Shown here piece after piece: positions 11,307 through 25,540 of a DNA stretch of 25,540 nt. A program made the position numbers and the translations under genes. Every line of letters starts with the position of its first letter. Position 1 is the first letter of the stretch. The notes below the pieces were generated by a model. That model did no database searches and had not been told where the DNA came from. It worked only from the letters and a program-made list of their open reading frames with translations. The DNA lies in the IMG/VR virus record IMGVR_UViG_3300015371_000157, positions 1-25,540 of that record; one strand, written 5' to 3'. The DNA comes from a virus.

Positions 11307-11779
11307 CAGAAGTAGTCCTCTCTCTCGACCGTGACCCGCCACGGCGCCGGCACGACCTGGCTGTGCCGCTCAAGCGCCTCGGCATAGCGCGGGTTCGTGG
11401 CGACCGACTTGGCGACCCGCCGGTCGACTCGGTAGTTGACGGTCTCGACGATCAGCTCGCCGATCCGGTGCTCGGGCAGGCCGAGCTTGCGGAGCTCGTC
11501 GGCCAGTTCGAGCGTGTCGTATTCGACCTTCTCGCCGCCGCTGACGACGGCCTTGAAGCCGTCGAGGTGCAGCGTCTTCGTTCCCTGTCGTTCCGCTTCC
11601 AGCCGGAGCGCGTCCATCAGTACGCTCCGGACGTCGTCCAGCTGCTTCTTCGCCTCCTGCAGCCGTTCGAGCGCTTCGGCGACCTGCTCCGGGTCGGCGA
11701 GCGCGATCAGCTCGCCGGTCAGCGGGATCACGACCTCGGCACGCCGCTCGAGCTCGCTATCAGGCTTCTTCGCGGTCAC
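11306..11779 (-). CDS. Conserved phage protein upstream of RecT (157 aa)
   Basis: The GTG at 11779 overlaps the previous stop (GTGA). The protein starts with a long helix or coiled coil (about 27-65: PEQVAEALERLQEAKKQLDD, VRSVLMDALRLEAERQGTK), then a beta-turn pair (TLHLDGFKAVVSGGEKVEY) and a helical DELRKLGLPEHRIGELIVE segment. The end is VNYRVDRRVAKSVATNPRYA. Proteins with this layout sit beside recombination genes in other actinophages, from my memory of the family. The biochemical role is not known; a nuclease partner or inhibitor would fit the place, without direct support. Confidence 0.75.
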   Translation of the reverse strand: MTAKKPDSELERRAEVVIPLTGELIALADPEQVAEALERLQEAKKQLDDVRSVLMDALRLEAERQGTKTLHLDGFKAVVSGGEKVEYDTLELADELRKLGLPEHRIGELIVETVNYRVDRRVAKSVATNPRYAEALERHSQVVPAPWRVTVEREDYF

Positions 11780-12006
11780 GTCGTGCGCCGCCAGTCGTTC
11801 GCGTGCGGGCAGGTCACGAAGTGACTGCGGTAGAGCGGCTCGCCCTCGAACGCGCCGGGCGAGACCGCGATCGCGACGTCGTCGCGGAGCACGAACAGCC
11901 CGCCGGGCTCAGGCCCGGTGTACGGCTCGGGGTCGAGCGGGATGCGGCGGCCGCGCTCGGTGCGCGCCCAGAGCAGCGGCGCGTCGCAAGAGCGGCAGCG
12001 GCTCAC
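11776..12006 (-). CDS. Small zinc-ribbon protein (76 aa)
   Basis: The GTG at 12006 overlaps the previous stop (GTGA). The protein begins SRCRSCDAPLLWARTERGRR and ends YRSHFVTCPHANDWRR. One CxxC and one C/H pair could hold one zinc. The IPLDPEPY turn and the SHFxTCPHA end are typical of a small family found in actinobacterial phages and hosts. The function is unknown. It is translationally coupled to genes on both sides. Confidence 0.75.
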   Translation of the reverse strand: MSRCRSCDAPLLWARTERGRRIPLDPEPYTGPEPGGLFVLRDDVAIAVSPGAFEGEPLYRSHFVTCPHANDWRRTT

Positions 12007-13353: not shown

Positions 13354-13404
13354 AGCGCGTTTTCGGGTTGGCACGGAACGCGGGTTCGATTCCCGCCGCC
13401 TCCA
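13348..13404 (+). other. attP: attP: 3' half of a tRNA-Ser(GCU) gene
   Basis: The anticodon loop CTGCTAA (13348-13354, anticodon GCT) is followed by stem strand GCGCG. Next is a long variable arm, TTTCG/CGGAA with an 8-base loop (13361-13378). Then come the T arm GCGGG-TTCGATT-CCCGC (13380-13396) and an acceptor strand CGCCTCC plus A. The 5' half of a tRNA is absent: no matching GGAGGCG acceptor strand and no D arm. This is the normal form of a phage attachment site that rebuilds a host tRNA gene after insertion. It lies one small gene from the integrase. The type II variable arm and GCU anticodon identify serine. The discriminator A is unusual for tRNA-Ser, where G is normal. Confidence 0.9.
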
Positions 13405-13439: not shown

Positions 13440-13616
13440 TCAAACTTCGCCCTCTGCGTAGGTGTCCCAAGCCATCTCGAGCCAGCCATCGGCGAGGCGC
13501 AGGAACGAGTCGGCGAAGTGCAACGACCAGGCGTCACCCTCGACGATCGCCCTGGCCGCCCGCTCTTGGCATTCCACGGTTTTCGCGAGTGCTGTCAGGA
13601 TCAACTGAGGCGTCAC
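13440..13616 (-). CDS. Small protein between integrase and attP (58 aa)
   Basis: The GTG at 13616 overlaps the integrase stop (GTGA). The protein is helical: TPQLILTALAKTVECQERAA, RAIVEGDAWSLHFADSFLRL, ADGWLEMAWDTYAEGEV. Excisionases are often small, lie beside int and attP, and are co-translated with int. This one lacks a visible winged-helix or MerR-like motif and is acidic at the end, so that role is only a possibility. I recognise no family. Confidence 0.65.
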   Translation of the reverse strand: MTPQLILTALAKTVECQERAARAIVEGDAWSLHFADSFLRLADGWLEMAWDTYAEGEV

Positions 13617-14800
13617 TCGTCGTCCTCCTCGTCCCTGTCCATCGCCCTGAGCGCAGCGGCAAGATCGACCGTGTCGAGGTCTGCGTAGATCGACGTCGTT
13701 CGGATGTCCTTGTGACCCAGCAGACGCTGGGTGAGCTTCAGGTCGTGGTGGGCGCGTTGGACGGCCCGGCCGGCGGTGTGGCGGCCGCGGTGCATGTTCG
13801 CCCCGGCGGTGACGCCTTGCTCGACGAACCCGGAACGGGCGAGACACCGGTACCACCAGCGGTGAACCGTCTGCACGCTTGGCCGCTGGTCGCTATGCGT
13901 CCGGGTCATCACGTTCGCGTATCCGACCGGGGCGCCCTTAACCAGCAGGATCTCCTCCGCGTGCTCGAGGTCGACGCGGCGGCGGCGGGTGTCCTGCCGG
14001 TAGACGAGAAAGTCGTCCGGTTGGAGACCGACCTCCGGTAGCTCGAGTTCGCCGAGGCGACGCCAGAACGACGGTTCGACGATCGGCACCGGGTACACCC
14101 GACCGTCCTTGGTGTGGACGGTCAGCTCGCGGAGCTCGAAGTCGAAGTGCTTCAGCTGGATGTTCCAAATCCCGGAGCGGCGGAGGCCGTAGTAGAGGAT
14201 CAGGAACGCGAGTAGCCAGTCGACGACGTAGTCCTGCGCGGCCAGCACCCGTTTGATGAAGTCGTTGTTGAACGTCTTCCGGTCAACGTCCCTCATCTTC
14301 GGGATCGTCAGCGCCCTGGCGGGGTTGCCTGGGATCAGCCCTTCGCTGATCGCCCAGTCGAAGAAGGTGACCCAGATCGACCGGATCTTCTTCTTCGTCC
14401 TGGCGCTAGTCGGTGTGCCCTGCGGGGTCGTCGCCCAGTGACGGGCGAGACAGGTGCGGAGCAGCTTGATCCCGGCCGGCGGCGCGAAATCGACGACGTC
14501 GAGGGTGGGATTGTCGAGGGCGATGTGGGCCAAGGGCGGCTCGTAGTCGCGGAGGCTGTCGGGGCGGGCGCCTCTCTCGTGTTCGAACCAGTCCATGAAC
14601 TCGGCGACGTGGGCGCCGAACGGTGTTTGCTGGTACCGCTTGTCAAGCACGGGGTTGTCCAGGATCGCCCTGGCCTCCGCGAGCGTGAACCGCTGTTTCG
14701 TAAGATCCGCAGTGCATAGGAGCTGATTCCTCCTGTGTCGTGCCCCGGGCGTTTCGGCGCTGCGGGGCTTTTTGTTGTTGTTCAGGAGGTTACCGCTCAT
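13613..14800 (-). CDS. int: Tyrosine-family integrase
   Basis: The protein has 395 residues. I chose the ATG at 14800, which has CTGGAG 7 bases upstream and overlaps the zinc-finger gene; longer extensions would overlap three small genes. Residues 35-165 form the SAM-like core-binding domain (HVAEFMDWFEHERG, KKIRSIWVTFFDWAISEGL). The catalytic domain shows Arg in YYGLRRSGIW (R207), Lys in HTKDGR (K231), HRGR (H337, R340), LLGHKD (H363) and the nucleophile in SIYADLD (Y372). It integrates the circular genome at the tRNA-Ser gene. It is coded in the leftward series that starts at the Cro-like gene, with no promoter of its own visible. Confidence 0.95.
   Translation of the reverse strand: MSGNLLNNNKKPRSAETPGARHRRNQLLCTADLTKQRFTLAEARAILDNPVLDKRYQQTPFGAHVAEFMDWFEHERGARPDSLRDYEPPLAHIALDNPTLDVVDFAPPAGIKLLRTCLARHWATTPQGTPTSARTKKKIRSIWVTFFDWAISEGLIPGNPARALTIPKMRDVDRKTFNNDFIKRVLAAQDYVVDWLLAFLILYYGLRRSGIWNIQLKHFDFELRELTVHTKDGRVYPVPIVEPSFWRRLGELELPEVGLQPDDFLVYRQDTRRRRVDLEHAEEILLVKGAPVGYANVMTRTHSDQRPSVQTVHRWWYRCLARSGFVEQGVTAGANMHRGRHTAGRAVQRAHHDLKLTQRLLGHKDIRTTSIYADLDTVDLAAALRAMDRDEEDDE
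14742..14773 (+). terminator. Plus-strand terminator hairpin inside the 5' end of int
   Basis: GCCCCG and CGGGGC (14742-14747, 14763-14768) form a perfect stem followed by TTTTT on the plus strand. It lies antisense to integrase codons 11-20. No plus-strand gene ends here. After integration, transcription of the host tRNA-Ser gene would enter the phage on this strand at 13405, so this hairpin could stop it before the immunity region. Confidence 0.6.
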
Positions 14801-14969
14801 CCTGCTCCAGCGCCTCATGGCCGCGGTTCCAACACTCCTCGCACCACGGGTTGCCCCATGCATCCGTCGTCTCCGTCTCGGCGCCGCACCTCGAGCAGAA
14901 GTCGGTACCCCAAGCGAGCGGATAGAGGTCGTCGAGGTCGATGACGCGATGCGGGTCCGAGCTACCCAC
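14790..14969 (-). CDS. Zinc-finger microprotein (59 aa)
   Basis: The GTG at 14969 overlaps the end of the RMF-like gene. The frame reads MGSSDPHRVIDLDDLYPLAW, then FCSRCGAETETTDAWGNPWC, then EECWNRGHEALEQDER. CSRC and CEEC make a complete four-cysteine zinc finger, with acidic flanks. It overlaps the integrase start by 11 bp and so is likely translated from the same transcript. The function is unknown; protein-protein contact or promoter control are possible. Confidence 0.65.
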   Translation of the reverse strand: MGSSDPHRVIDLDDLYPLAWGTDFCSRCGAETETTDAWGNPWCEECWNRGHEALEQDER

Positions 14970-15138
14970 GTTCGAGTTCTTCCCGTGCCTCGCGGCCGCG
15001 CCGCCACGCGGCTTGGTAGACGGCGTTGAACTGGTTGGCGGGCCGGCCGTGGTAGCCGTCGTCGTAGCCCTGGACGCGCAATGCTTGGTCTTGGCGTTTC
15101 TGGTCGTCGCGCAACCTGACTTGTTTGAGCCAGTTCAC
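14962..15138 (-). CDS. RMF-like microprotein (58 aa)
   Basis: The GTG at 15138 overlaps the previous stop (GTGA). The frame reads MNWLKQVRLRDDQKRQDQAL, then RVQGYDDGYHGRPANQFN, then AVYQAAWRRGREAREELERG. The pattern GYxxGxxGRP...Y..AWRRGREA matches the family of ribosome modulation factor-like phage proteins, and the length is that of RMF (55 residues in E. coli). RMF pairs 70S ribosomes into inactive dimers in Gammaproteobacteria. Whether this protein binds ribosomes is unknown; only the motif is seen. Confidence 0.6.
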   Translation of the reverse strand: MNWLKQVRLRDDQKRQDQALRVQGYDDGYHGRPANQFNAVYQAAWRRGREAREELERG

Positions 15139-15293
15139 CGGCGGATGGTCTTGATCGTCGCGGCGTGGTCACGGGCCGCCTGTGGGGTCGGGAACTCCCA
15201 TAGAGCCTCGTGGCCGCAGCGGTGGCATTCGTCGGGCTGGGATGGTTGGCGCCAGAGGTGGCCGCAGAGGTCGCAGACGTAGAACCGGATCAC
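15135..15293 (-). CDS. Zinc-ribbon microprotein (52 aa)
   Basis: The GTG at 15293 overlaps the Cro-like stop (GTGA). The frame reads MIRFYVCDLCGHLWRQPSQP, then DECHRCGHEALWEFPTPQAA, then RDHAATIKTIRR. CDLCG and CHRCGH give a compact rubredoxin-like zinc ribbon that fills most of the protein. The C-terminal helix is basic. The function is unknown. It is the second gene after the leftward promoter and so probably expressed early. Confidence 0.65.
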   Translation of the reverse strand: MIRFYVCDLCGHLWRQPSQPDECHRCGHEALWEFPTPQAARDHAATIKTIRR

Positions 15294-15511
15294 TTCGGCT
15301 GGCCACCGTTGAAGTAGCTGGGGGGCCGGCCGAACACCGCGCCGAGCAGCCGCCGATATTTCGGGCCTGGCAGGTTGCGACCGTGTTCCCAGCGTTTGAC
15401 CATCCGCGGCGACGTCTTGAGGATCCGGGCGAGCTCGGCTTGGCTCAGATCAAGGTCGTGGCGAGCGTCCTTGATCCGGTCTGCGATGGTTTGCGGGTCC
15501 CCCCCGACCAT
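15290..15511 (-). CDS. Cro-like XRE-family regulator (73 aa)
   Basis: I chose the ATG at 15511. An earlier ATG (15538) lies in the middle of the operator and a TTG at 15577 lies beyond it. The helix-turn-helix fills most of the protein: IADRIKDARHDLDLSQAELA, RILKTSPRMVKRWEHGRNLP. The recognition helix PRMVKRWE is close to VRTVKRWE of the divergent repressor, so both probably read the same site. Position, direction and size suit a Cro-type control gene heading the leftward operon with int. Confidence 0.8.
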   Translation of the reverse strand: MVGGDPQTIADRIKDARHDLDLSQAELARILKTSPRMVKRWEHGRNLPGPKYRRLLGAVFGRPPSYFNGGQPK

Positions 15512-15522
15512 GATGGGGCCAG

Positions 15523-15528
15523 AGACTA
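15523..15528 (-). promoter_or_regulatory. Candidate -10 box of the leftward early promoter
   Basis: TAGTCT on the minus strand fits TAnnnT and lies 11 bases before the ATG at 15511, giving an almost leaderless message. It abuts the palindromic operator (15529-15550), which would cover the -20 to -35 area. No standard -35 box is clear. Confidence 0.45.
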
Positions 15529-15550
15529 TGTCCCCCATAATCCGGGGACA
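15529..15550. promoter_or_regulatory. Palindromic operator between the two regulators
   Basis: TGTCCCC and GGGGACA face each other across 8 bases (near-symmetric CATAATCC). A third half site TGTCCCC sits at 15635-15641, directly before the repressor GTG. The site is where a Cro/repressor pair with matching recognition helices would bind to control both leftward and rightward starts. Confidence 0.75.
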
Positions 15551-15629
15551 AGGGGTCCGTTTCTGTTTCGTCCGCAAAGAGCGCGAAGCTCGTGCTGGGC
15601 CTTAACACACCCGCCAACCTGTTTGTCAC

Positions 15630-15635
15630 TAGAGT
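15630..15635 (+). promoter_or_regulatory. Candidate -10 box for leaderless repressor transcript
   Basis: TAGAGT is followed by 7 bases and then the GTG at 15643. This is the spacing of leaderless messages common in actinobacteria. The operator half site TGTCCCC overlaps its end, so binding would block initiation. A TTAACA at 15602 is 22 bases upstream, too far for a standard -35. Confidence 0.5.
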
Positions 15636-15642
15636 GTCCCCT

Positions 15643-16116
15643 GTGACCGCCGAAGAGGAGCTTCTGCGGCTTCCGATCGGTGACCGTATCCGTTATGTGC
15701 GGCGTGAAATGTTGGGCGTCAACCAGGAGGCATTCGCGAAGCGTGTCGGCGTGTCGGTGCGTACCGTGAAGCGCTGGGAGGCCAGCTTCATCGCCCCGAC
15801 CAGGGACAAAGCGGAGAAGATCGCTGCCCTAGCGAATCTCGCGAGCGAGTTGTTTTACCCGGACGAGAGTGTCGAGGCGGAGCCGATCGTCGAGATCCGG
15901 GAAATGCTGACGACGCTGGGCGAGACGATCACCAGCCTCGAGGAGACGTTTACCGCCGTGTCAGAGCGGATGGTCGGAACGCTGGCCGAAATGGAGACTC
16001 AGCTTGCTCAGCAGACCAGTCTTCTTGCTCGTCAGACCGCCCTCCTGGAATTACTCGAAGCGAAGGTTGCGGCGGATCAGCCGAAACCACGGCGAGCACG
16101 GAGGCAGAAGTCGTAA
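15643..16116 (+). CDS. Putative immunity repressor: XRE domain plus coiled coil
   Basis: The protein has 157 residues from the GTG at 15643; the frame is open to 15592 but there is no ribosome site there and the -10 box fits a leaderless start. Residues 10-65 are an XRE helix-turn-helix (IRYVRREMLGVNQEAFAKRV, GVSVRTVKRWEASFIAPTRD). Residues 80-142 are a long amphipathic helix, IREMLTTLGETITSLEETF then MVGTLAEMETQLAQQTSLLA, likely for oligomerisation. The end is basic (PKPRRARRQKS). There is no LexA/S24 peptidase, so it would not be inactivated by RecA-stimulated cleavage. It is divergent from the Cro-like gene across a shared operator and is the only regulator on the plus strand. Confidence 0.8.
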   Translation: MTAEEELLRLPIGDRIRYVRREMLGVNQEAFAKRVGVSVRTVKRWEASFIAPTRDKAEKIAALANLASELFYPDESVEAEPIVEIREMLTTLGETITSLEETFTAVSERMVGTLAEMETQLAQQTSLLARQTALLELLEAKVAADQPKPRRARRQKS

Positions 16117-16506: not shown

Positions 16507-16773
16507 ATGAAAGCTTGGATAACGGGCGCTGACGAAGCGTTGACTCCCGAGGAAGCGACGCGCCGAGCCAGCCGCGCTAACCGCCGTGCCGTGATCTGGG
16601 TCGTCGTGATTCTTGCGGTGATCGGGATCGGGAAGGCGTGGTCGGTCGGGACGTTCGACAACTTCCTCTGGCGGGTCGGGCTGAACGCGAAGCCGTGCGC
16701 GACGAATGGGTTCGGCGCGACGTTCTGCGGCGACGACCTCGAGCGGTACAACAAGCGGTTCAACACGCCCTAG
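16507..16773 (+). CDS. Small membrane protein with external Cys pair (88 aa)
   Basis: AAAGGG stands about 9 bases before the ATG, 15 bp after the previous stop. Residues 1-27 are charged (EEATRRASRANRR), residues 28-46 a membrane helix (VIWVVVILAVIGIGKAW), and the rest ends CATNGFGATFCGDDLERYNK. The last motif is common in small actinobacterial membrane proteins, as I recall. By the positive-inside rule the C-terminal part with two cysteines would be outside. Its TAG shares CTAG with the stop of the convergent lysis-region gene. Confidence 0.7.
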   Translation: MKAWITGADEALTPEEATRRASRANRRAVIWVVVILAVIGIGKAWSVGTFDNFLWRVGLNAKPCATNGFGATFCGDDLERYNKRFNTP

Positions 16774-18076: not shown

Positions 18077-19084
18077 TCAGCTGAGTCCCCAGATCACGAG
18101 CCGGGAGCCGGCGTCGATGTTTCCGCTCGTGGCGTGGAGCGAGATTCTGGTGATGGCGGCCGTGTTACGCCAGGTGCCGGCGATACTCATGATGCTCGCC
18201 GCGTTGTTGTTGGTGGTGTCGGCGGAGCCGCCTGTGCCGCTGATGGTTTTTCGGTAGGTGGTGCCGTCGTAGTTGGGGACGGTCAGACGCCAAACCCCGA
18301 ACGTCCCGGATGCGCCGCTGCCACCAGGGGCGTAGATCAGAACACCGTTGGCGGCCAGCTGCAAACCCGATGAGGGAGTGCCGCCGGTGGCGTATTGGCG
18401 CATGTAGTCGTAGGTGGCGGTCGCGTCGGCGTTGAAGCGGAGATCCATGGCGGCAACGAAACCTGAGCTGTTGCGGAGGTAGGCGACGATGTCGAGGGCG
18501 ATGTACCCGCCGGCGATCCCGCCGGCGCCGGTGTCGATCGAGGCGGCGGCTGCGCCGAGCGACCCTGAGTCATACAGTTTCGTCATGCCGCCGCCGCCGG
18601 CTGGGGTCGCCCATTTCACACCGAGCGTTTGGGCGCTGTCCGCTGTGAGGACCTGGTTGTTCGTGCCGACGGGGAGCCGGCCGCCGGTGTCGGCCGCCGA
18701 TCCGACTGCCAGGTCTCCTTTCGCGTCCCACAAGGTGTCGGCGACCATCCCGCCGGCTGCAGCAGCCCATTTGATCCCGGTCGCCTGCGCACTGTCGGCT
18801 GTTAGGACTTGGCCGTTCGTGCCGACAGCGAGCTTCGAGGCTGTGTCAGCACCGGTGGCGGCGACCAGGTCGCCTTTGCTGTCCCAGATCGGGTCGGTCG
18901 CGACGATCGCAGTCCCCGCCGCCACGCCGAGCGTGGCGTAATCGACCCAGGCGCCCGAGACGATCCGTTCGATCTTGTTGTGGGTGGTGCAGACGTACAT
19001 CGTCCCGGCCGGGAGCGTCCCGACCGCCGGCCGGTTGGCGTGAGTGTCGGGGCCGAGGAAATGCCCTACGAAGGTGGTTCCCAT
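18077..19084 (-). CDS. Tail fibre-like protein with two repeat units
   Basis: The protein has 335 residues. After a short N-terminal part ([18 protein letters not shown], then [10 protein letters not shown]) come two units of about 46 residues (67-112 and 119-164) with the pattern WDxKGDLxxxxxADT, then [16 protein letters not shown], then GxKWA. These are typical of phage tail fibres and baseplate proteins. Residues 165-335 form a beta-rich C-terminal domain ([45 protein letters not shown]), likely the trimeric receptor-contact head. The gene lies between the LamG protein and the endolysin, the usual place for host-recognition proteins. Confidence 0.8.
18593..18886 (-). repeat. Two tandem fibre repeat units
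   Basis: Units at 18749-18886 and 18593-18730 code similar 46-residue segments, both with [14 protein letters not shown]. The DNA copies are clearly alike but not identical. Confidence 0.8.
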
Positions 19085-19093
19085 CGTCGCCTC

Positions 19094-20428
19094 CTAAGGC
19101 AAGGGGGTCAGGGTCGGGATCAGGTCGCCGTTATCGTCGAGGACGAGCGTGCCGTCGCTGTCGGCGAGCGGGAACCACCAGGTTGTTGCGCTGGCCGGGT
19201 CGAACGTGCCCGTAACCGTGACGCTGCTGGCGGCTGTGAGACGCCCGTCGGCGTCGACGGTGAACCGGCCGACGTGGGTGCTGTCCCCGTAGGTGCCGGC
19301 GCTGACAGTGGTCGAGGCGAGCTCGGACGTGCCGACGGCGTTCGCGGCGATCTCGTTCGCGGTGACCCCGTCCGCTTTTACCCTTAGCGTGTCCGCCGCG
19401 ATCTCGATCGTCGAAGCGTCGACGTTGACGGAAAGCACATGGCTGGCCTCTGACAGGCCGGCACCGGCGACCGTGGCGGCGAAGCCGGGGTTCGGGTAGC
19501 TGCCGTCGAGGACGCCGCCGGCGGGACCGGACGGCGGGCTGGCGGGACCGGATCCTGCGGTTACGAACCCGGCGATCTCGCTGGCCGTCAGCGCCTCGTT
19601 GAAGAGGGCGACCTCGTCGACGGCGCCGTAGAAGAAACAGGGGTAGTTGCTGCCACCGGAGGGCTGGTCGCCCATCCCGATGAACAGGTTGTGTGGGCTG
19701 GCGACGAACGCGGCGGCGTCCGTGTCGATCTCGACGCCGTTGAGGTACAGGGTGACGGTGTCGGCGGTGTTGTCCCAGACCAACGCGAGGTGATACCAGG
19801 TGTTGAGCGGCAGGCCGCTTGTGGGGCCGAGCGTGATTTCGGAGCTGCCGTTCCGCCAGACACCGGTGATTGTTTGGTCGTACGGCTTGTAGTAGAACGC
19901 GGCGCCGCCGGAGGGTGTGCCAGCGTAGTTCCAGCAGCCGAACGGGATCGAGATGTAGCCGCTGTAGCTGGGTAGGGTGCCGCCGACCAGGGCGAGCCAG
20001 GCGGCAACGACGTCGCCGGGGTTGATGAACCCGGTCAGGGTCCAGCCGGTGTCGCTTCCCGAGGGTGGGTAGCTGGGATCGTAGAACGCGGACGGTCCGC
20101 CGACCGGGGTGGTCGTGACCAATTGGGGGCTGTTGAACATGGTGGCCTGGTCGTCGTCGTCTCCGAGCTCGGTGTGGTCGACGCGGCTGGGGGTGAGCGC
20201 TCCGAGGTGGCCGGTCAGGTCGAGGCTGTGCCCGGACGAGTCCAACGCCTGCGAGAAGTCGGGCGGGTCGCCTGTGCCGAGCCTGTACCAGGCTTGGAGG
20301 GAAGGGAAGCTGGTGACGTAGTCGGCGAACCCGGGGTTGGAGACGAGCAGGCCCGGGATCGGGTCTGAGCCCCAGGGGAGGTGCTGGTCGGCGTGCAGGG
20401 CCGGCTGGGCTGTTTTGATCAGGCCCAT
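19094..20428 (-). CDS. Minor tail protein with LamG/concanavalin-like domain
   Basis: The protein has 444 residues. The ATG at 20428 overlaps the previous stop by 10 bp; an open extension further back is a shadow of that gene. Residues 42-292 form a LamG-type beta sandwich: LQAWYRLGTGD, DTGWTLTGFINPG, LNTWYHLALVWDNTADTV, TLYLNGVEIDT, YGAVDEVALFNEALTASEIA. Such domains bind carbohydrate. Residues 295-444 are a fibre-like stalk (GSYPNPGFAATV, LRVKADGVTANEIAANAVG, ADGRLTAASSVTVTG). It is probably part of the adhesion device at the tail tip, acting with the next fibre gene. Confidence 0.82.
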   Translation of the reverse strand: MGLIKTAQPALHADQHLPWGSDPIPGLLVSNPGFADYVTSFPSLQAWYRLGTGDPPDFSQALDSSGHSLDLTGHLGALTPSRVDHTELGDDDDQATMFNSPQLVTTTPVGGPSAFYDPSYPPSGSDTGWTLTGFINPGDVVAAWLALVGGTLPSYSGYISIPFGCWNYAGTPSGGAAFYYKPYDQTITGVWRNGSSEITLGPTSGLPLNTWYHLALVWDNTADTVTLYLNGVEIDTDAAAFVASPHNLFIGMGDQPSGGSNYPCFFYGAVDEVALFNEALTASEIAGFVTAGSGPASPPSGPAGGVLDGSYPNPGFAATVAGAGLSEASHVLSVNVDASTIEIAADTLRVKADGVTANEIAANAVGTSELASTTVSAGTYGDSTHVGRFTVDADGRLTAASSVTVTGTFDPASATTWWFPLADSDGTLVLDDNGDLIPTLTPLP

Positions 20429-25220: not shown

Positions 25221-25540
25221 CCGACACCTCCTCCGTTCGTGAACACACGGACCCGCCACTCACAGCCGAGGTAGTTGCCGGTCCCGTCGACGGCGGGGTA
25301 GACGGTGAACCCCGACGGCGGGTCAACGTCCATCCCTTCGGCGAGCCCGTTCAGTGTTTTGTCTGCGAGTAGTGCTGTGCGGACGCTGGTTGGCCCCTGT
25401 GGCTCCAGAAGCTGTAGGAGCAGCTCTTGGTTCGCGTCGTGGTCTACGGTCGACACACGCGCTCTCACGGTCCACAGGGTGAGCCGCGAGCTGGGGCCGA
25501 ACGCCGCCTCGTCCTGGGACGGGTCGGCGGGGTAGATGTC
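25217..25540 (-). CDS. Tail terminator-like protein, C-terminal part (continues from position 28)
   Basis: This is the second part of the 143-residue gene whose ATG is at 135. The frame is open to the end of the window and joins codon 36 at position 28 when the 27-bp overlap is collapsed. The part here has DIYPADPSQDEAAFGPSSR, LTLWTVRARVSTVDHDANQE, LLADKTLNGLAEGMDVD and YLGCEWRVRVFTNG. The alternation of WTVRARV strand, helix and CEWRVRV strand resembles tail terminators. Its stop overlaps the next GTG. Confidence 0.75.
   Translation of the reverse strand, partial: DIYPADPSQDEAAFGPSSRLTLWTVRARVSTVDHDANQELLLQLLEPQGPTSVRTALLADKTLNGLAEGMDVDPPSGFTVYPAVDGTGNYLGCEWRVRVFTNGGGVG
25514..25540. repeat. 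Right copy of 27-bp terminal direct repeat (circle overlap)
   Basis: These bases are identical to 1-27; see the left copy for what the overlap means. Confidence 0.93.

Follow-up and report, generated by a model that had tools for sequence, protein, structure and literature searches.

A block of three overlapping microprotein genes between regulator and integrase of a temperate phage: probable accessory cargo, including a protein with a distant resemblance to ribosome modulation factor

Three very short open frames lie between a Cro-like regulator gene and the integrase gene in the virus record IMG/VR IMGVR_UViG_3300015371_000157, whose 25,540 bp constitute the window analyzed in this study. 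Are these frames genes at all and, if so, what might they contribute to the phage? A sequence-only reading described them as a zinc ribbon, a protein resembling ribosome modulation factor (RMF) and a zinc finger, which would be made first on infection and might act on host machinery or on the lysis-lysogeny choice. Based on the analyses below, we are fairly confident that they are real genes and that they make up an accessory block, coupled in translation, which occupies a variable cargo slot in an operon of a temperate phage, in the order HTH regulator, cargo, integrase (int).

Gene layout of the regulator-integrase region

The block is encoded on the minus strand at 14790-15293; its genes comprise 52, 58 and 59 codons and all start with GTG. 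The first one, zr1 (15135-15293, 52 aa), carries a CxxC...CxxC zinc-ribbon pattern; the second, rmf-like (14962-15138, 58 aa), encodes a basic, two-helix protein; and the third, zr2 (14790-14969, 59 aa), encodes an acidic protein with the spacing CxxC-x14-CxxC. Four nucleotides are shared by zr1 and rmf-like (15135-15138) and eight by rmf-like and zr2 (14962-14969). In the positions, sizes and overlaps of the three genes, as well as in their location between the Cro-like HTH gene and the integrase, the sequence-only reading proved accurate. The overlaps at the two ends of the block were absent from it: the stop codon of the HTH gene overlaps the GTG start of zr1 by 4 nt (15290-15293), in the same GTGA arrangement that joins the zr1 stop to the GTG start of rmf-like, and zr2 overlaps the integrase gene by 11 nt. 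Alignment with two relatives, which keep the N-terminal extension (conserved N-terminus MSG.LL.NNKKP...ARHRR), moved the start of the tyrosine integrase gene (13613-14800, minus strand) to ATG 14800. With this start, and with overlaps of 4, 4, 8 and 11 nt, the run HTH - zr1 - rmf-like - zr2 - int is a single unbroken series of stop-start overlaps.

The Cro-like HTH (Xre) gene (15290-15577, minus strand; likely true start ATG 15538 or ATG 15511) is the first gene of this operon. A divergent HTH repressor-like gene (15592-16116, plus strand; start possibly GTG 15643) occupies a CI-like position, and between the divergent HTH genes lies a perfect palindrome, TGTCCCC-N8-GGGGACA (15529-15550), a candidate operator with a third half-site at 15635-15641. 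A consensus scan found no sigma-70 promoter-like site. Nearly the whole window is coded on the minus strand, except for 15592-16116 and 16507-16773. Because a 27-bp direct repeat is found in exact copies at both termini (1-27 and 25514-25540), the genome is probably complete and circular, and the block would then head the minus-strand array.

Immediately beyond the int gene, on its 3' side, positions 13378-13404 (plus strand) resemble the 3' end of the tmRNA gene ssrA (cmscan RF00023, E 5.8e-11, below the gathering score). This site is flanked by direct repeats, CA[AT]CCCGA...CGC...TAGCAGGGAAAA, and is conserved in both integrase relatives. It is a probable attP core, and the phage likely integrates in ssrA.

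Coding signal and selection

The microprotein genes had been described as easily missed behind longer shadow frames, and longer frames do cover the block: two on the plus strand (14941-15282, 113 aa; 14772-15029, 85 aa) and the integrase frame, which stays open in the 5' direction as far as 15172. A codon-usage model was trained on undoubted genes of the same phage, and the LLR per codon was compared over the six frames. The frames of zr1 (0.17-0.18), rmf-like (0.47-0.49) and zr2 (0.20-0.22) are each the best of six, against at most 0.07-0.11 for competing frames; the codon scores of the shadow frames lie at zero or below (+0.01 to -0.71). When windows of this size were taken from undoubted genes and scored leave-one-out, the true frame came out best of six in 90-91% of cases. 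A score of 0.18, as for zr1, is attained by wrong frames in up to 15% of windows for the worst frame class; 0.49, as for rmf-like, is attained in at most 1.9%. The coding signal of rmf-like is hence strong on composition alone, with homologues as additional backing; that of zr1 and zr2 is moderate by composition, and the overlap chain and the paired CxxC motifs add support.

A related endolysin is encoded by 62 contigs, and homologues of the RMF-like protein were found among these. One soil-phage contig, L058, encodes a homologue with 58% identity over 33 aa (E 1e-7). With a profile of two members, a further homologue was found in a second soil-phage contig, L070 (E 7e-10); the match in L071 is weak (E 0.002). 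A direct IMG/VR search with the window protein gave no matches, and three matches in Achromobacter phages were rejected as chance, as they fall within large tail or hypothetical genes. Compared with L070, the window shows codon-position identities of 0.67/0.58/0.27, and 14 of the 18 shared residues are encoded by different codons; the rmf-like frame is therefore, by this comparison, evidently under protein-level (purifying) selection. The similarity in the sense frame also exceeds that in every other frame, the next-best of which contains stops. Codon-level conservation in relatives, whose absence would have refuted the sequence-only reading by its own account, is thus seen for rmf-like against L070; for zr1 and zr2, the searched collections hold no relatives.

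In L058, the rmf-like gene lies about 3 kb downstream of int within a run of GTGA-coupled small genes (18806-19597), in the order CxxC zinc microprotein, 72-aa protein, RMF-like protein, phrog_5984 protein, followed by a methyltransferase-like gene (a label assigned by eye). The window itself contains at 11776-12000 (minus strand) a Cys-containing C-terminal stretch, CRSCDAPLLW...EPLYRSHFVTCP, which by eye resembles the phrog_5984 protein of L058.

Could the three frames nevertheless be chance open frames in GC-rich DNA? The DNA of this phage yields many long shadow frames, and zr1 and zr2 have no relatives that would speak for them. Against such an origin stand the best-of-six codon usage of all three frames, the unbroken stop-start overlaps from HTH to int and the paired CxxC motifs; for the middle gene, it is largely refuted by homologues that diverge at third codon positions. 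We regard a chance origin as very improbable and conclude from these sequence features that all three frames are real protein-coding genes.

Relationship to RMF and to known zinc proteins

How far the label RMF-like is justified depends on the method of comparison. The Pfam RMF model (PF04957) does not match the window protein even at E 10, and the homologue in L058, although aligned in the right register, scores 9.9 bits (E=1) against a cut-off of 27.9 bits; membership in PF04957 is thereby not attained. When the window protein alone is compared directly with RMF of E. coli, the observed score is attained in 309 of 1000 shuffles and is not significant. Profile comparison gives a different picture: with hhalign, a four-member phage profile scores 28.3 against an E. 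coli/Vibrio RMF profile, and the maximum in 200 column shuffles is 22.3. When L071 is left out, the score is 22.7 versus at most 18.3 in shuffles, and a two-member profile is borderline (1/200 shuffles). The alignment spans the GY..G..GR...W core, and we take it as distant profile similarity. What remains of the earlier label is this distant similarity, a score that none of the 200 shuffles reached, but not a match to the Pfam RMF model.

The likeness to RMF (PF04957; 6h4n, 4v8g, 2jrm) extends to size, basic charge, the GY..G..GR...W core and two predicted helices. Structure prediction proposes a two-helix hairpin (pLDDT 71), for which Foldseek found no match; the predicted fold was used for the helix count only and never as evidence of homology. 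In contrast to RMF, the phage protein is about seven residues shorter between the core motifs, lacks the CPY motif, and is phage-borne and coupled to zinc microproteins. Could it still be a genuine RMF, which shuts down the 70S ribosomes of the host by making them dimerize? A profile-profile score above all 200 shuffles, the shared core, the basic charge and the two helices would fit, but the missing residues and CPY motif, together with the failure of the window protein and of its best homologue at the Pfam model, make this unlikely in our view. The relationship is better described as a distant resemblance, reflecting either remote common ancestry or shared design, and not as membership. In L071, a 121-aa protein (128-490) has an N-terminal spacing closer to that of canonical RMF (GFNDGLAGREKRPPY...). 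With E. coli RMF as query, no isolate phage is found, and in the open-access subset of the literature we found no account of phage RMF-like proteins or of the slot between HTH and int.

Both zr1 and zr2 possess two CxxC pairs with ribbon-like spacing, which gives them zinc-ribbon character. Paired CxxC motifs are common to known ribbons such as FmdB, rubredoxin-like and TFIIS proteins (compared with zr1) and to CxxC-x17-CxxC type zinc proteins (compared with zr2); the matches, however, are partial or below threshold. For zr1, the TFIIS Zn-ribbon model (PF01096) gives 23.1 bits at a cut-off of 21, over 15 residues and profile positions 25-39 of 39. This match covers one half of the ribbon only and not both CxxC halves of a complete TFIIS ribbon, and we rejected zr1 as a TFIIS member; several rubredoxin/FmdB models match weakly. 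A direct IMG/VR search with zr1 gave no matches. The single weak IMG/VR match of zr2, in L003 (45% over 31 aa, gapped), was treated as convergent Cys spacing, and neither protein has homologues in any searched collection. Searches of GTDB genomes with zr2 and the integrase, and of isolate phages and plasmids with the microproteins, yielded nothing useful. The predicted structure of zr2 is poor (pLDDT 63). We claim neither homology of zr2 to the zinc microprotein of L058, a weak similarity reached by 43 of 1000 shuffles, nor a duplication relating zr1 to zr2, whose similarity (5/1000 shuffles) reflects the common CxxC pattern. Cys-rich coupled microproteins recur in this phage group according to a pattern scan run with no null model.

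A variable slot and its possible function

The sequence-only reading also suggested a search for a conserved neighborhood. In the nearest integrase relatives, two IMG/VR contigs with 74% and 66% identity, the HTH and int genes are kept in place, but the three-gene cassette is missing. The first (L004/L002, 74%) has a single unrelated gene of 61 aa between HTH and int; in the second (L005, 66%), HTH and int follow each other directly with a GTGA overlap and no cargo. Among contigs with distant integrases, L062 contains genes of 71 aa and 56 aa at this place, L048 a Cys-rich gene of 66 aa, and L049, L059 and L058 none. Between fixed flanks, the content thus ranges from zero to three unrelated small genes, as expected of a cargo slot. 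Because the integrases of the latter five contigs are distant, the slot may reflect a widespread tendency in this phage group and not one homologous locus. Taken together, sequence comparison suggests that the block probably represents exchangeable accessory cargo and that its place in the regulator-integrase operon is a variable slot. A classical moron would have its own promoter and terminator; by consensus scan the block has no promoter-like site, and the one terminator-like match nearby (14751-14768, plus strand) is located inside int. The block is coupled to the surrounding operon.

A known case for comparison is the host takeover module of phage SPO1, whose genes are mostly small and made early (PMC6873191). 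In common with this module and with 'moron'-type cargo, the window has clustered small genes that are coupled or in an operon. Unlike the SPO1 module, the block consists of only three genes, belongs to a temperate phage and lies between regulator and integrase.

According to the model that we propose, the block would share a transcript, begun in the divergent operator region, with the Cro-like gene and the integrase, and translation would proceed mainly by stop-start coupling at the GTGA overlaps; zr1 and rmf-like are preceded by little or no Shine-Dalgarno sequence. Early expression is plausible, because the block heads the minus-strand array beside the palindrome between the divergent HTH genes. 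Most likely the products are small proteins with which the phage binds RNA or proteins of the host once infection has begun. Contact with RNA, perhaps rRNA, is probable for the basic hairpin of the RMF-like protein; the two zinc proteins, judged by their motifs, may attach to nucleic acid or to a protein of the host. Action on the host is likewise plausible. The block itself would be dispensable for integration and gained or swapped as cargo.

Two other roles deserve consideration. Stop-start coupling to int through the 11-nt overlap and the place between regulator and integrase could point to a direct helper of the integrase or of the lysis-lysogeny switch, e.g. an excision factor or an Int cofactor. 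Yet relatives with 66-74% identical integrases and the same att layout do without all three genes, and none of the three proteins matches an HTH or excisionase-like family; such a helper is quite unlikely, and a required role of the block in integration is unlikely because of these same relatives. The lysis-lysogeny function proposed earlier has thereby become improbable as a required function.

Somewhat better placed, although still the less probable reading, is expression of the block in the lysogen together with regulator and int, to the benefit of the host through superinfection exclusion, immunity or anti-defence and not of early lytic growth. Operons of this regulator-integrase type can be expressed in lysogens, and cargo that varies between close relatives in a fixed slot would suit exclusion or defence genes. 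On the other hand, PADLOC gave no match for the three proteins, and a place right after the Cro-like gene would be just as natural in a lytic operon. We favor exchangeable cargo, the products of which target RNA or proteins of the host or serve the lysogen. A more far-reaching extension is that the RMF-like family, present in several unrelated soil-phage neighborhoods, might bind host ribosomes early and retune translation with zinc-ribbon partners, the slot between HTH and int serving as delivery site; this is speculative, and we give it little weight.

For the biology of this little-known soil phage group, the results suggest that the regulator-integrase stretch is a swappable slot of overlapping microproteins, which gene callers can miss. 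They also point to a family of small phage proteins that has no match of usable score in PHROGs, Pfam or NCBIfam and is distantly similar to RMF; its member in the window, with 58 residues, is amenable to tests at the bench.
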